Positions 12,908 through 38,070 of a stretch of DNA of 64,000 bases are shown one piece after another. Position 1 is the stretch's first letter. Each line of letters opens with the position of its first letter. Made by a program: the position numbers and the translations under genes. The notes beneath the pieces are model-generated. The model was not told where the DNA came from, searched no databases, and saw only the letters and a list, made by a program, of their open reading frames with translations. The stretch is from Sphingosinicella sp. LHD-64 (GTDB lineage: Bacteria; Pseudomonadota; Alphaproteobacteria; Sphingomonadales; Sphingomonadaceae): NCBI RefSeq assembly GCF_031157375.1, contig NZ_JAVIFV010000004.1, positions 62,001 to 126,000 on the forward strand, in the 5' to 3' direction.

Positions 12908-12984
12908 CGTCATTCCAGCGAAAGCTGGAATCTCATTTCACCTTATCCAGAAAAAGGGAGATTCCAGCTTGCGCTGGAATGACG
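12908..12984. repeat. Palindromic repeat element, type A, copy 1
   Basis: The 77-bp element opens with CGTCATTCCAGC and closes with GCTGGAATGACG (12-bp terminal inverted repeats). Each end folds into its own hairpin. It lies between the divergent glpD operon and glpK. Type A copies recur at 16222, 17095, 33101, 34689, 37986 and 48157. Confidence 0.85.
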
Positions 12985-16221: not shown

Positions 16222-16307
16222 CGTCACCCCAGCGAAGGCTGGGGTCTCAATGGGGTTGTACGCCGAGCTTTTCGCCCGTCGGGATCCCGGCCTTCGCCGG
16301 GATGACG
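16222..16307. repeat. Palindromic repeat element, type A variant, copy 2
   Basis: The ends are CGTCACCCCAGC and CGGGATGACG with two end hairpins. The element directly abuts the stop codon of the enoyl-CoA hydratase gene at 16308, inside the presumed valine operon. Confidence 0.75.
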
Positions 16308-17094: not shown

Positions 17095-17180
17095 CGTCAT
17101 TCCAGCGAAAGCTGGAATCTCCCTTGTTCTTTTCCCGCCTTCCGAAGGGAAGTGAGATCCCAGCCTTCGCTGGGATGACG
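17095..17180. repeat. Palindromic repeat element, type A, copy 3
   Basis: The 86-bp element begins CGTCATTCCAGC and ends GCTGGGATGACG. It lies between phaC and the enoyl-CoA hydratase gene. Confidence 0.8.
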
Positions 17181-20045: not shown

Positions 20046-21184
20046 TGGCGGGTGAGCTCGCGGCCGACGATCATGCGCATCACCTGGTTGGTCCCTTCAA
20101 GGATGGAGTGGACACGAAGATCGCGCCAGAAGCGCTCGATCGGATAGTCCATCAGATAGCCGTAGCCGCCGTGGAGCTGCAGCGCGCGGTCGACGATCGA
20201 CGAGCCCGAATCGGTGGCGAGGCGCTTGGCCATGGCAGCGAACCTAGTCTTGTCCGGCGCATTCTCGGTGACCTTCACCGCGGCGGCATAGAGCAGCATC
20301 CGCGCCGCCTGCAGCTCGGTCTCCATGTCGGCGAGCATGAACTGGGTGTTCTGGAAATCGGCGATCGCCGCGCCGAACTGCTTGCGCTCCTTGGTGTACT
20401 TCACCGCCTCGTCGAGGCAGCGCTGGGCGCCGCCGAGGCTGCAGGCGCCGATGTTGAGGCGGCCGCCGTCGAGACCCATCATCGCGATGCGGAAGCCTTC
20501 GCCCTCGCCGCCGACGAGATTCTCCGCCGGCACGCGGACCGAGTCGAAATTGACCTGCGCGGTCGGCTGCGAATGCCAGCCCAGTTTGCGCTCCTGCGCA
20601 CCGAAGCTGACGCCCGGCATGTCCTTCTCGATCACCAGACAGCTGATGCCCTTGGGCCCGTCGACGCCGGTGCGGACCATGCAGACATAGACCTCGTTCT
20701 CGCCGCCGCCGGAGATGAACTGCTTGGTGCCGGTGACGACATAGTGGTCGCCCTCCTTCACCGCGCGCGTCTTGAGGGCGGCGGCGTCGGAGCCCGAGCC
20801 GGGCTCGGTGAGGCAATAGGAGCCGATCCGCTCCATCGTCACCATCGAGGGCAGATACTTGTCCTTGACCGCCTGCGTGCCGAAGCGGTCGATCATCCAG
20901 GACGCCATATTGTGGATGGAAATGAAGGCGCTGGTCGAGGGACAGCCATAGGCCATCGCCTCCATGATCAGCGCCGCCTCCAGCCGGCCGAGGCCGATGC
21001 CGCCCGACTCCTCGGCGACATAGATGCTGCCGAAGCCGAGCTCCGCAGCGGCGCGGATCGTGTCGCGCGGGAAGATGTGCTTCTCGTCCCATTCGGCGGC
21101 ATGGGGCGTAATCGCATCGGCGGTGAACTGCTGCGCCATTTCCTGAATCTGGCGCTGCTCGTCGGTGAGGTCGAACTGGCTCAT
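20042..21184 (-). CDS. Acyl-CoA dehydrogenase, probably isobutyryl-CoA dehydrogenase
   Basis: The product has 380 residues of the flavin-dependent ACAD family. Marks are YCLTEPGSGSDAAALKTRAV (FAD/substrate binding), the hydrophobic core FDSVRVPAENLVG, QLHGGYGYLMDYPIERFWRD and the catalytic-base segment HSILEGTNQV, with Glu near residue 363. It oxidises a short branched acyl-CoA to the 2-enoyl-CoA. Placement directly before 3-hydroxyisobutyryl-CoA hydrolase points to isobutyryl-CoA from valine. It overlaps both flanking genes by ATGA. Confidence 0.93.
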   Translation of the reverse strand: MSQFDLTDEQRQIQEMAQQFTADAITPHAAEWDEKHIFPRDTIRAAAELGFGSIYVAEESGGIGLGRLEAALIMEAMAYGCPSTSAFISIHNMASWMIDRFGTQAVKDKYLPSMVTMERIGSYCLTEPGSGSDAAALKTRAVKEGDHYVVTGTKQFISGGGENEVYVCMVRTGVDGPKGISCLVIEKDMPGVSFGAQERKLGWHSQPTAQVNFDSVRVPAENLVGGEGEGFRIAMMGLDGGRLNIGACSLGGAQRCLDEAVKYTKERKQFGAAIADFQNTQFMLADMETELQAARMLLYAAAVKVTENAPDKTRFAAMAKRLATDSGSSIVDRALQLHGGYGYLMDYPIERFWRDLRVHSILEGTNQVMRMIVGRELTRQ

Positions 21185-22128
21185 GGCGATACCCTTTGGC
21201 GAAGGACGCGTTCGTTGAACAGGGCCGAGATGACGCTTTCCTCGTTCCAGCGCGGCACGAGCCCGGCGCGGGGACGGCCGCGGGCATTGGCGAGGGCGGC
21301 GATGCGGCCGCCGCCGAGGAACATCGAATCAGGCTCTTCCGTAGCGATCGGGTCGGCAAAGGCGGTGTCGGCGCTGACGATCTCCCAGCCACGGGCGCGC
21401 AGCGCCGCGACCGCATCGGCGATGTAGAGCGCGGCGAGATCGGTTTCGTGGAGGAGCATCACATGGGCCGGCGACCGGCCGAGCGTCTCGCGGGCGATGC
21501 CTTCGTTGAACTCCGCCGCGCCGACGATCATCTCGACATAGAGATCGCGCAGCGCATTGCGGTCGATCGCCGCGCCAGCCGCGGCGGCGCGGTCGACGAG
21601 CTGGTCGAGATACCAGTCGTAGCTGTCGACGGTGACATAACCGCTCTGAAGACCACGCTCGCGGAGGCCCCCGCGCAGGGCATCGCGGCGCTCCGGCGTG
21701 TCGCGGCCCTCGTCGAGGAAGGGGAAACGGTACCAGGGCCGGTAGCCGGGGCGCCCCTCCAGCCAGCGGTCGGCGCGGTCGAGATCGGCGAGATAGTCGG
21801 CGACCGGGGTGCGGGTCGCCCAGAGGTGGCTGTGCGAATGGTTGGCGATGACATGGCCGGCGGCGACATAGGCGGCGATGTGCGCTTCACCGCCGGCGCC
21901 ATCGGCGCCGTCGAGATTGCCGGTCGTGACGAAGAAGGCCGCCTGCGGCACACGCGCCTCGCGCAGCGCGGTGATCAGCCGCTCGGTGCGCTCGTCCGGG
22001 GTCAGGAAGGAATCGCGGGCGCGGGGGACGTCGTCGAAGGTGAGCGCGATGCGCTTCTGGGCCGCGGCGGGGTAAGCGACGAGCAGGCATGTCGCGAGGA
22101 AGGTGAGAAGGATGCACGAAAAGCTCAC
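21181..22128 (-). CDS. Secreted polysaccharide deacetylase-family protein
   Basis: The product has 315 residues with a signal peptide (MSFSCILLTFLATCLLVAYP, cleavage near residue 23). The NodB-type deacetylase motifs follow: LTFDDVP (catalytic Asp and metal Asp) near residue 29, NHSHSH (metal His) near 95, and YRFPFLDEG. Family members remove N- or O-acetyl groups from chitin, peptidoglycan or other glycans in the periplasm. It is the first gene of the coupled run into the valine genes and overlaps the acyl-CoA dehydrogenase by 4 bases, although it has no obvious link to valine breakdown. Confidence 0.88.
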   Translation of the reverse strand: MSFSCILLTFLATCLLVAYPAAAQKRIALTFDDVPRARDSFLTPDERTERLITALREARVPQAAFFVTTGNLDGADGAGGEAHIAAYVAAGHVIANHSHSHLWATRTPVADYLADLDRADRWLEGRPGYRPWYRFPFLDEGRDTPERRDALRGGLRERGLQSGYVTVDSYDWYLDQLVDRAAAAGAAIDRNALRDLYVEMIVGAAEFNEGIARETLGRSPAHVMLLHETDLAALYIADAVAALRARGWEIVSADTAFADPIATEEPDSMFLGGGRIAALANARGRPRAGLVPRWNEESVISALFNERVLRQRVSP

Positions 22129-22141
22129 GCTTGGCCTCTAC

Positions 22142-22234
22142 CGTCATGCTGAACTTGATTCAGCATCCATGAACGCTGTGTTGTCATGCTCGACCAATCC
22201 GTGTTCATAGATCCTGACTTTCGTCAGGATGACG
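22142..22234. repeat. Palindromic repeat element, type B, left copy flanking the GIY-YIG gene
   Basis: The element is exactly 93 bp, from CGTCATGCTGAA to TCAGGATGACG. The left hairpin is ATGCTGAA/TTCAGCAT around CTTGA and the right hairpin TCCTGA/TCAGGA. It is paired with 22569-22661 in the same orientation. Confidence 0.85.
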
Positions 22235-22243
22235 GAGTGGGGG

Positions 22244-22585
22244 ATGTCCCGAGAACCTTGCGTCTATATACTCGCCAGCCGGCGGCATGGGACGATCTAC
22301 ATTGGCGTGACTTCGGACTTGATGGGGCGGTTGCACCGGCATCGGACCGGATCGACGCCCGGCTTTACGTCGCAGTACGTGGTTCACCGGCTCGTCCATT
22401 TCGAGATGTTCGGCGACATGGGCGCGGCTATTGCTCGCGAGAAGCAACTCAAGGCGTGGCGGCGTGCCTGGAAGGTCGCGCTGATCGAGGAGGGTAATCC
22501 GTTCTGGGAAGATCGGGCTGTGGAACTCGGCTTCGATCCGGTGAAACCACATCCGTCGACGCTGAAGCCGTCATCCCGAACTTGA
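22244..22585 (+). CDS. GIY-YIG endonuclease-domain protein embedded in palindromic repeats
   Basis: The product has 113 residues. The GIY-YIG nuclease core is complete: CVYILAS (the G-I-Y strand variant), TIYIGVTSDL (Y-I-G), the arginine in GRLHRHR, and the catalytic Glu in AIAREKQLKAWRRAWK, then NPFWEDRA. Small proteins of this UvrC/UPF0213-like class are single-strand or structure-dependent nucleases. ATG 22244 follows GGAGTGGGGG; an alternative ATG at 22229 lies inside the left repeat. The last codons and the TGA stop (22583-22585) lie in the left hairpin of the right repeat. The gene is thus precisely bounded by two 93-bp elements, suggesting a mobile or repeat-maintaining unit. Confidence 0.9.
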   Translation: MSREPCVYILASRRHGTIYIGVTSDLMGRLHRHRTGSTPGFTSQYVVHRLVHFEMFGDMGAAIAREKQLKAWRRAWKVALIEEGNPFWEDRAVELGFDPVKPHPSTLKPSSRT

Positions 22586-22661
22586 TTCGGGATCCATGAA
22601 CACGGATTGTGCGAACTCGCGGGCTCTGTGTTCATGGGTCCTGACTTTCGTCAGGATGACG
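22569..22661. repeat. Palindromic repeat element, type B, right copy flanking the GIY-YIG gene
   Basis: The element is 93 bp, from CGTCATCCCGAA to TCAGGATGACG. The left hairpin (ATCCCGAA/TTCGGGAT) differs from the left copy by compensating changes on both arms. An inner pair CCATGAACAC/GTGTTCATGG is also present. It contains the GIY-YIG stop codon. Confidence 0.85.
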
Positions 22662-22686: not shown

Positions 22687-24183
22687 TCATCCCATGGTCG
22701 GGATGACGAACGCATTCTCACCCGTCGCGCTGCCGTCGGGCCAGCGCTGGGTGATCTTCTTGTTCTTGGTCCAGAAGCGCACGCCCTCCGGGCCGTGCTG
22801 GTCGATGTCGCCGAAGCCCGAGCGCTTCCAGCCGCCGAACGTGTGGTAGGCGACCGGCACCGGGATCGGCACGTTGATGCCGACCATGCCGACATTCACG
22901 CGCGCCGCGAACTCGCGCGCCGCATGGCCATTGCGGGTGAAGATGGCGACGCCGTTGCCGTAATCGTGCTCGCTCGGGAGCTTCAGCGCGCTCTCGAAAT
23001 CCGGCGCGCGGACCATCTGGAGGACGGGGCCGAAAATCTCTTCCCGATAGGAGCGGAAGGTCGGCTTCACATGGTCGAAGAAGGTCGGGCCGATGAAGAA
23101 GCCCTCCTCATGGCCCTGCAATGAGAAGCCGCGGCCGTCGATCACCAGCTCGCCGCCCTCATCGGCGCACATCTGGATATAGCTTTCGATCTTCGCCTTG
23201 TGGGCGGCGTTGACCACCGGGCCGTAATGGGCATCGGGATCGGTCGAGACGCCGACGCGCAGGCCCTCGATCGCGGGAATGAGCTTGGCGCGCAGGGCAT
23301 TGGCGGTCTTGTCGCCGACCGGCACGACCACCGGGAGCGCCATGCAGCGCTCGCCCGCCGAGCCGAAGGCCGCGCCGGCGAGGTCGTTGACCACCTGGTC
23401 GAGGTCCGCGTCCGGCATCACGATGCCGTGATTCTTGGCGCCGCCGAAGGCCTGCACGCGCTTGTTGTTCGCGGTGCCGCGCGAATAGATGTACTGCGCG
23501 ATGTCGGAGGAGCCGACGAAGCTGATCGCCCTGATGTCGTCATGGTCGAGGATCGCGTCGACCATCTCCTTGTCGCCATGGACGACGTTGAGGACGCCGT
23601 CCGGCAGGCCGGCTTCCTTCATCAGCTCGGCGAGGCGCACCGGCACCGAGGGGTCGCGCTCCGACGGCTTCAGGATGAAGGTGTTGCCGCAGGCGATGGC
23701 GACGCCGAACATCCACATCGGGATCATCGCCGGGAAGTTGAACGGGGTGATGCCCGCGACGACGCCGAGCGGCTGGCGCATCGAATAGACGTCGATGCCG
23801 GGGCCGGCGCCGATCGTATATTCGCCCTTCAGCGCGTGCGGGATGCCGCAGGCATATTCGATGACCTCGAGCCCGCGCTGCACGTCGCCCTTGGCGTCGG
23901 CGACGACCTTGCCATGCTCGGAGGCGAGCAGCAGCGCGAGATCGTCGATATTGGCTTCGACCAGCGCCTTGAAGTTGAACATCACCCGGGCGCGGCGCTG
24001 CGGATTGGTCGCGGCCCAGCCGGGAAAGGCCTCGCGGGCGGCGGCGACCGCCTTTTCGAGATCGGCGGCGCTGCCGAAGCGGACCTGCGCCTGGACGGCG
24101 CCCTCGCTCGGATTGAACACGTCGCCCTGACGCTCGCCCGAGGCGAAGGGCAGGCCGGCGATGAAATGGTCGATGTTGCGCAT
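22687..24183 (-). CDS. mmsA: Methylmalonate-semialdehyde dehydrogenase (CoA-acylating)
   Basis: ATG 24183 gives 498 residues, the normal MmsA length. Marks are GITPFNFPAMIPMWMFGVAI, ILKPSERDPSVP, FVGSSDIAQYIYSRG and the catalytic cysteine in GSAGERCMALPVVVPVG, with the C-terminal KNKKITQRWP typical of MmsA. The enzyme converts (methyl)malonate semialdehyde with CoA and NAD+ to propionyl-CoA or acetyl-CoA and CO2, the last step of valine breakdown. It is divergent from the LysR regulator at 24277 and separated from the rest of the valine genes by the GIY-YIG unit. Confidence 0.95.
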   Translation of the reverse strand: MRNIDHFIAGLPFASGERQGDVFNPSEGAVQAQVRFGSAADLEKAVAAAREAFPGWAATNPQRRARVMFNFKALVEANIDDLALLLASEHGKVVADAKGDVQRGLEVIEYACGIPHALKGEYTIGAGPGIDVYSMRQPLGVVAGITPFNFPAMIPMWMFGVAIACGNTFILKPSERDPSVPVRLAELMKEAGLPDGVLNVVHGDKEMVDAILDHDDIRAISFVGSSDIAQYIYSRGTANNKRVQAFGGAKNHGIVMPDADLDQVVNDLAGAAFGSAGERCMALPVVVPVGDKTANALRAKLIPAIEGLRVGVSTDPDAHYGPVVNAAHKAKIESYIQMCADEGGELVIDGRGFSLQGHEEGFFIGPTFFDHVKPTFRSYREEIFGPVLQMVRAPDFESALKLPSEHDYGNGVAIFTRNGHAAREFAARVNVGMVGINVPIPVPVAYHTFGGWKRSGFGDIDQHGPEGVRFWTKNKKITQRWPDGSATGENAFVIPTMG

Positions 24184-33100: not shown

Positions 33101-33169
33101 CGTCATTCCAGCGAAAGCTGGAATCTCATTGCCTTAAGAAGGGAGATCCCAGCTTTCGCTGGGATGACG
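33101..33169. repeat. Palindromic repeat element, type A, copy 4
   Basis: The 69-bp element runs from CGTCATTCCAGC to GCTGGGATGACG, between the convergent FMN reductase and dcd genes, where it could also act as a bidirectional terminator. Confidence 0.8.
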
Positions 33170-34688: not shown

Positions 34689-34769
34689 CGTCACCCCCGC
34701 GAAAGCGGGGGGTCCAGCTTTCCTGGAGCGTCAGAAAGAAGCTGGATACCCGCTTTCGCGGGAATGACG
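34689..34769. repeat. Palindromic repeat element, type A variant, copy 5
   Basis: The ends are CGTCACCCCCGC and CGCGGGAATGACG with hairpin arms at both ends. It lies between the divergent UPF0262 operon and dnaB. Confidence 0.75.
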
Positions 34770-37985: not shown

Positions 37986-38070
37986 CGTCATTCCAGCGAA
38001 AGCTGGAATCTCCTTTCCTAAACTGCGGCGCCAGAAAGGCAGGGAGATTCCAGCTTTCGCTGGAATGACG
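37986..38070. repeat. Palindromic repeat element, type A, copy 6
   Basis: The 85-bp element has perfect 12-bp ends CGTCATTCCAGC and GCTGGAATGACG, between astD and the same-strand SelO gene. Confidence 0.85.

Follow-up and report, generated by a model that had tools for sequence, protein, structure and literature searches.

The closest known kind of system to the one described here is, as we assume, the pair formed by the Ssn nucleases and their Neisseria repeat. According to a paper of 2025, a GIY-YIG nuclease of N. meningitidis reportedly acts on repeats as a single-strand nuclease and modulates transformation; the same kind of nuclease-repeat pair is said to be present in Neisseria, where the Ssn repeat is called NTS. 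The CGTC-tagged REPs are characterized, in the passages devoted to them, by a CGTC tag, a stem of 8 bp starting from AT, loops of 4-5, a CCA tail and an arrangement in inverted pairs (Di Nocera et al., 2013; PMC3733652). They are found mainly in alpha-Proteobacteria and include neisserial dRS3, i.e., CGTC-1, and the same passages state that they "apparently lack a dedicated transposase" (PMC3733652). In excerpts of a REP survey from 2025, no word beginning with 'nuclease' or 'transposase' occurs (PMC12306157). A search of a limited collection of papers, judged partly by titles and abstract openings, yielded no report in which GIY-YIG proteins are paired with REP-type repeats.

The window, i.e., a stretch of 64,000 nucleotides from Sphingosinicella sp. 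LHD-64, contains a cassette in which an intact GIY-YIG nuclease gene is located between two repeats (Table 1). An earlier note had described two 93-bp elements that flank a complete gene in the same orientation and start with CGTCAT, and this description is confirmed by the coordinates, by the identity of the two elements at 71 of 93 positions and by the match of the protein to PF01541. Both elements close with TCAGGATGACG, and the sequences immediately outside them are unrelated. The position of the first ATG of the ORF inside the left element and of its stop codon inside the right one also agrees with that note. A second ATG, at position 22244, matches the family start better and is the likely start of the nuclease, which would then count 113 aa. 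The right neighbor of the cassette was identified by eye as a methylmalonate-semialdehyde dehydrogenase gene.

Table 1. The cassette and its neighboring genes, with positions as counted in the window.
Feature	Positions	Strand	Remarks
Left neighbor: polysaccharide deacetylase family gene (PF01522)	21181..22128	-	Host gene, outside the unit
Whole cassette (element - nuclease - element), 520 bp	22142..22661	+	
Left element, 93 bp	22142..22234	+	CGTC-tagged hairpin (loop CTTGA) followed by inverted CGTC-tagged hairpin (loop TTTC)
GIY-YIG nuclease ORF, 118 aa from first ATG	22229..22585	+	Pfam PF01541, E 6e-13
Right element, 93 bp	22569..22661	+	Make-up and orientation as in the left element; compensated stem changes
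Right neighbor: aldehyde dehydrogenase family gene (PF00171)	22687..24183	-	Start estimated; host gene, outside the unit

Within each element, two different hairpins follow each other in a fixed order and in inverted orientation, with CGTC at each outer end and an inner stem CATGAAC/GTTCATG. The hairpins display an unpaired CGTC end, a stem of 8-9 bp from AT, a loop of 4-5 and a CCA-like tail, which reads CTA in one of the four hairpins of the window. Dispersal in mostly inverted pairs, a second feature of CGTC-tagged REPs, is found as well, with the window's own type present in few copies. When folded as single-stranded DNA, the left element reached -18.0 kcal/mol (z -3.3 relative to shuffles) and the right element -28.6 kcal/mol (z -7.0). 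The earlier note had read the stem differences between the left hairpins of the two elements as compensated, which was borne out when 13 distinct hairpins with this type of loop were compared: 21 stem cells were changed on both sides vs. 6.1 in shuffles, six of the eight stem pairs were affected by such double changes, and 96.2% of the stem cells were paired vs. 76.5% in shuffles. One of five measures of compensation in these 13 hairpins, i.e., further pair types, did not exceed the shuffles (425/500), and four of the hairpins have an unpaired outermost stem pair. A search of Rfam gave no meaningful match near the locus.

The window protein contains Y8, Y19, G21, R29, H33, and E66 (numbering of the 113-aa form), which we take to be the core positions of GIY-YIG domains, and all six residues are invariant in 63 of 63 proteins of the clade to which it belongs (clade A, see below). 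Its predicted structure, with a mean pLDDT of 87.6, was matched by Foldseek to the GIY-YIG structures of Slx1, UPF0213, and UvrC (best E 3.7e-3, for Slx1); among solved structures, no close relative was detected (best phmmer E 0.016). In domain searches, the GIY-YIG domain was the only one identified, and no HUH motif, catalytic tyrosine or transposase domain was found. Searches of PHROGs and NCBIfam yielded no family and PADLOC gave partial matches only (best E 0.008), and, on these results, a phage or defense origin of the nuclease is unsupported. The closest named relatives of the nuclease among the matches listed come from sphingomonads.

How general the framing is was evaluated in 119 genomes of the family, 118 of which have some PF01541 match. 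A first set comprised 80 loci from among those best by E-value in the family listing, which is not a random draw. An inverted repeat pair frames the gene at 64 of these 80 loci vs. 9 of 6292 sliding windows, where the loci took the better of two geometries and the windows one geometry. A second, named set consisted of the best 80 of at least 584 confirmed loci, one of which (L225) lies at a contig edge, and has no locus in common with the family set. Here, a framing pair was found at 52 of 79 loci vs. 1 of 2948 windows, and at 31 of the 47 loci whose records are not titled as sphingomonads; titles of framed records include Neisseria, Methylomonas, Gallionella, Chloroflexi, Bacteroidetes, Elusimicrobia, and Uhrbacteria. 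With both sets pooled, 107 of 155 loci are framed, as compared with 6 of 1353 neighboring ORFs and, among control ORFs of 80-150 aa, 2 of 251; a strong inverted pair is absent at 48 of the 155. The earlier note had asked whether homologs are consistently flanked by hairpins; at most loci examined, they are flanked rather than standing alone. A homolog from a Neisseria sp. MAG (L201), 60% identical to the window protein, lies inside a dRS3-like repeat array, as judged by the dRS3 pattern given in PMC3898611. A further locus (L310 in genome G141) repeats the window's full arrangement of dimer - nuclease - dimer; its stems are different ones, and its tag is GAGTCAT.

With protein profiles, 63 loci were assigned to clade A and 49 to clade B, 20 of the latter in longer ORFs; L129 was placed in neither clade (score 48), and L071, which has a stop codon within the domain, was used in a shortened version. 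The tags differ by clade. Of 53 clade-A arms, 39 have CGTCA(T/C), which none of 36 clade-B arms has; a tag of the CGTTCG/CGCTCA type occurs in 27 of these clade-B arms and in one of the clade-A arms. A loose T3 pattern was excluded from the counts. Tagged hairpins occur on both sides at 41 of 63 clade-A loci vs. 9 of 586 other ORFs, and at 56 of 79 loci of the named set vs. 6 of 450. The tag points outward in 37 of the 53 clade-A arms, inward in two and both ways in one, and its direction is unclear in 13. A strictly tagged hairpin is absent at 10 of the 63 clade-A loci; eight of these keep an inverted pair with a score of at least 13, and in several the tag is altered. A subclade of clade A (L066, L069, L091, L109, and L115) has flanking hairpins with an altered tag, GAGTCCCCGCG..GGGGACCTC or similar. 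Nucleases with a KAGSR motif (L140, L141, and L148) cluster together; L148 is framed by CGTCATTGCGAGCGAAGCGAAGCAATC, and only short matching pieces were found at L140 and L141.

Repeats and nucleases have diverged together. On the nuclease tree, in which 52 of 109 inner branches are open and three clade-B rows are typed T2 or T3, taken as a fault of the regular expression, element type takes 29 changes vs. 61 when shuffled, and none of 200 shuffles was as low. Protein identity is correlated with element similarity (Mantel r 0.45 for clade A and 0.39 for clade B, with none of 2000 permutations as high). When the T2 class is taken by itself, the better element is that of the nearest nuclease in just 8 of 18 cases. 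Judged from the sequences compared, element sequence tracks nuclease phylogeny. The hairpins could also be mere bystanders, i.e., terminators or generic REPs that lie by chance beside a small gene. REPs are indeed described as common between genes in passages of PMC3733652, and one-sided tagged hairpins are frequent by other ORFs (106/586 and 130/450). However, chance neighborhood is very improbable given the difference in framing between the 155 nuclease loci and the control ORFs, including those of 80-150 aa, and given that tags and stems follow the nuclease phylogeny; it was therefore rejected.

The 3.89-Mb genome from which the window derives has six PF01541 matches. Five of these loci comprise four open genes (L001-L004) and a broken gene of clade A (L006); each of the five is flanked on either side by hairpin repeats, whose sequences differ between the loci; the sixth match (L005) is an open frame of 650 aa. 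The element that frames the second nuclease (L002) is GTCATGCCAGCG. L006 (G000:C3:168747-169028) is broken near its N-terminus, lies within a long open frame and is still framed by CGTC-1-like hairpins. At L001, a SpoU-family methyltransferase (PF00588, E 1e-22) follows the GIY-YIG domain in the same open frame, and the repeat between the two would code for a linker. In L044, L045, L047, and others of clade B, the GIY-YIG frame likewise reads across the repeat and forms part of a longer ORF.

For sister element families of this genome, dimers of near-constant length are dispersed genome-wide. There are 31 exact T2 units, 22 of which form 11 inverted pairs that span 82-83 bp and have unrelated flanks. 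The hairpin framing L002 is present in 67 exact units, and in 139 units within two mismatches, a count that admits other stems too. A blastn search with the 93-bp element of the window itself gave only seven rows, which fall on six places: both window copies, two further full copies, one partial copy and one fragment. Seven of 26 congeneric genomes have the window hairpin, whose occurrence does not track the closest nucleases. The window nuclease is assigned to the T2 type by score (169.7 vs. 132.8 bits), which makes the T2 pairs its possible targets. The window contains further CGTC-tagged hairpins at 12909-12983, 16223-16306, 17096-17179, 33102-33168, 34690-34768, 37987-38069, and 48223; six of these seven sites are inverted pairs, and most belong to the CCAGCG...CTGG type found on both sides of L002. 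In another genome, three T2 hairpins lie exactly 253 bp apart (G118:C6:81455, 81708, and 81961), likely as a tandem array.

Copy numbers were compared between genomes with and without the nuclease, in counts and tests that ignore kinship and with types assigned among the matches listed. A clade-A nuclease is present in 79 of the 119 genomes. T2 elements total 560 copies in these 79 genomes vs. 18 in the 40 negative ones, and at least five copies are present in 31 of the 79 vs. 1 of the 40; for CGTC-1, the totals are 397 vs. 40 copies, and five or more copies are found in 23 of 79 vs. 4 of 40. The 30 genomes with a T2-type nuclease have a median of 9.5 T2 copies vs. 0 in the 49 without (p 3e-7), and no significant association was found between T2-type nucleases and CGTC-1 copies (p 0.09). 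CGTC-1-type nucleases were not significantly associated with CGTC-1 copies (p 0.059, n = 13 genomes; p 0.029, n = 12, without the qualifying genome G065) or with T2 copies (p 0.7). The expectation in the earlier note that elements are missing where the nuclease is missing holds in part: 8 of the 40 clade-A-negative genomes contain three or more copies, with two element types counted, and these numbers are low, as those of remnants would be.

The history of the locus was followed in 18 congeners with informative sequence beside the dehydrogenase gene. The earlier note had suggested looking for empty sites in sister strains; 17 of the 18 congeners have no nuclease at this position. The remaining one, G137, has element - nuclease - element beside the orthologous dehydrogenase gene, with a nuclease that is 73% identical. 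In the two empty sites that were read base by base (L278 and L283), the neighboring genes nearly abut, and neither hairpin nor dimer is present. Elsewhere in the family, the sister species G001/G095 and G004/G098 have both nuclease and locus in common, and G031 and G114 share a locus where the nuclease genes are 68% and the flanks 77-79% identical; in this last pair, CGTC hairpins frame the gene in one genome (L112), and none were detected in the other (L146). Because sister species share the locus and congeners vary, the nuclease-repeat pair appears to be mostly vertically inherited, with gain and loss.

That one locus holds the cassette in some genomes and lacks it in others, together with the position of the gene between hairpins whose tags point outward in 37 of 53 clade-A arms, as if in the spacer of a dimer, would also suit a homing-like selfish gene, for which the dimer would be the target and which would be copied into an unoccupied dimer by repair after cleavage. 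However, the window has a whole dimer on each side rather than one split dimer, the empty sites L278 and L283 contain no dimer, and the genome has many unoccupied dimers and few nuclease genes, which makes such an origin unlikely. Movement of the dimers themselves was searched for in 400 kb each of G001 and G095, which are from one other genus; 296 kb could be aligned. Five of 13 larger indels inspected (out of 20) involve tagged or CGAGC-type hairpins, and in three of the 13 a hairpin pair lies within the extra piece. One such piece, the best empty dimer site, is a T2 dimer edged by a 6-bp direct repeat, which deletion explains equally well. An insertion with clear ends was not found in the aligned 296 kb; whole-dimer transposition with clean target duplication is unsupported by these indels, and mobility is not established. 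Thus, of the proposal in the earlier note that the nuclease moves the elements, the presence or absence of the cassette among congeners was found, but insertions with clear ends were not.

The locus is best explained, with moderate confidence, as a cognate pair, i.e., a GIY-YIG nuclease with CGTC-tagged hairpin repeats as its putative recognition elements and with its gene between two dimers. It is the T2 copy test and the co-divergence that carry our confidence in this reading. The nuclease would recognize tag and hairpin in single-stranded DNA, either on the lagging strand or in DNA from transformation, and would cut beside the tag; repair of the cut with another copy of the element as the template would then copy or preserve the dimers and the gene between them. 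Recognition is suggested by the co-divergence of nuclease and element, cutting by the conserved core and the reported work on Ssn, and copying by the dispersal of the elements, and by dispersal only. The system may thus represent a GIY-YIG counterpart of TnpA-REP (RAYT), mostly vertically inherited with occasional gain and loss. In the earlier note, the likeness to RAYTs with an unrelated catalytic domain was already drawn; it holds for anatomy, framing, dispersal and co-variation, whereas movement or maintenance of the elements by the nuclease is what we infer.

Another explanation, which is possible but clearly less probable than a cognate pair with copying, is a function as reported for Ssn that involves no mobility. 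The nuclease would cut single-stranded incoming or exposed DNA at the repeats, thereby tuning transformation and recombination, and the repeats would spread by other means and be kept as cutting sites. The Neisseria sp. homolog in its dRS3-like array, the vertical inheritance of the nuclease in sister species and the single-strand activity and role in transformation that Ssn is said to have would all be consistent with this. Such a function alone, however, leaves unexplained why several different pairs exist in one genome, why the span of the dimers is near-constant and why the nuclease gene itself is framed.

If the pair is cognate, its implications extend beyond this locus. A widespread class of repeats in bacteria was left without an enzyme, and this nuclease family is its likely partner; the CGTC-tagged REPs, to which the relevant passages assigned none in 2013 (PMC3733652), gain a candidate. 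The broader proposal appears about evenly balanced between right and wrong: the CGTC-tagged REPs of many phyla would form, beside the RAYTs and independently of them, a second REP-type replicator system, with single-domain GIY-YIG nucleases as dedicated enzymes and with several mutually private pairs possible in one genome; a sister clade, in part fused to a SpoU-family methyltransferase, would serve the distinct CGTTCG/CGCTCA-tagged superfamily. REP-type systems would then have arisen with two unrelated catalytic domains, and the repeats of sphingomonads would be linked to neisserial dRS3. The data predict pair by pair which nuclease recognizes which hairpin, which can be tested with short oligonucleotides.

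Compared with known systems, the window protein is a single-domain GIY-YIG nuclease, as Ssn is reported to be. Ssn is also said to have a cognate repeat with many genomic copies, in Neisseria among others; in the window's genome, the 93-bp element itself has few copies, and sister families reach 31 T2 units and 67 exact units. The ordered hairpin dimers, the several pairs per genome and the second clade with another tag may set the present system apart from Ssn. The GIY-YIG fold is common to UPF0213, UvrC, Slx1 and the predicted model of the window protein. A GIY-YIG homing endonuclease gene sits at its own cut site, and alleles without the gene carry the target; the window cassette is intergenic, and the two empty sites read base by base are devoid of a dimer. 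An insertion sequence would have a transposase, defined ends and a target duplication; no transposase domain was found in the window unit, and the 6-bp repeat at one polymorphic dimer is ambiguous. The TnpA-REP/RAYT systems, as portrayed in passages of PMC8266576 and PMC3733652, likewise comprise a small nuclease gene between tagged hairpins, dispersed inverted pairs and specificity between element and enzyme. However, RAYTs are HUH tyrosine enzymes with GTAG tags, for which single-strand cleavage has been demonstrated, whereas the window system, known here from its sequence, combines a GIY-YIG enzyme with CGTC tags. In the passages on neisserial dRS3/NIME arrays, these arrays are linked to a phage integrase (PMC3898611), whereas the dRS3-like array around the Neisseria sp. 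homolog holds a GIY-YIG nuclease. Finally, the window elements share tag, stem, loops, tail and inverted pairing with the CGTC-tagged REPs; in the passages on those repeats, no transposase gene is associated with them (PMC3733652), whereas here they frame a GIY-YIG gene.
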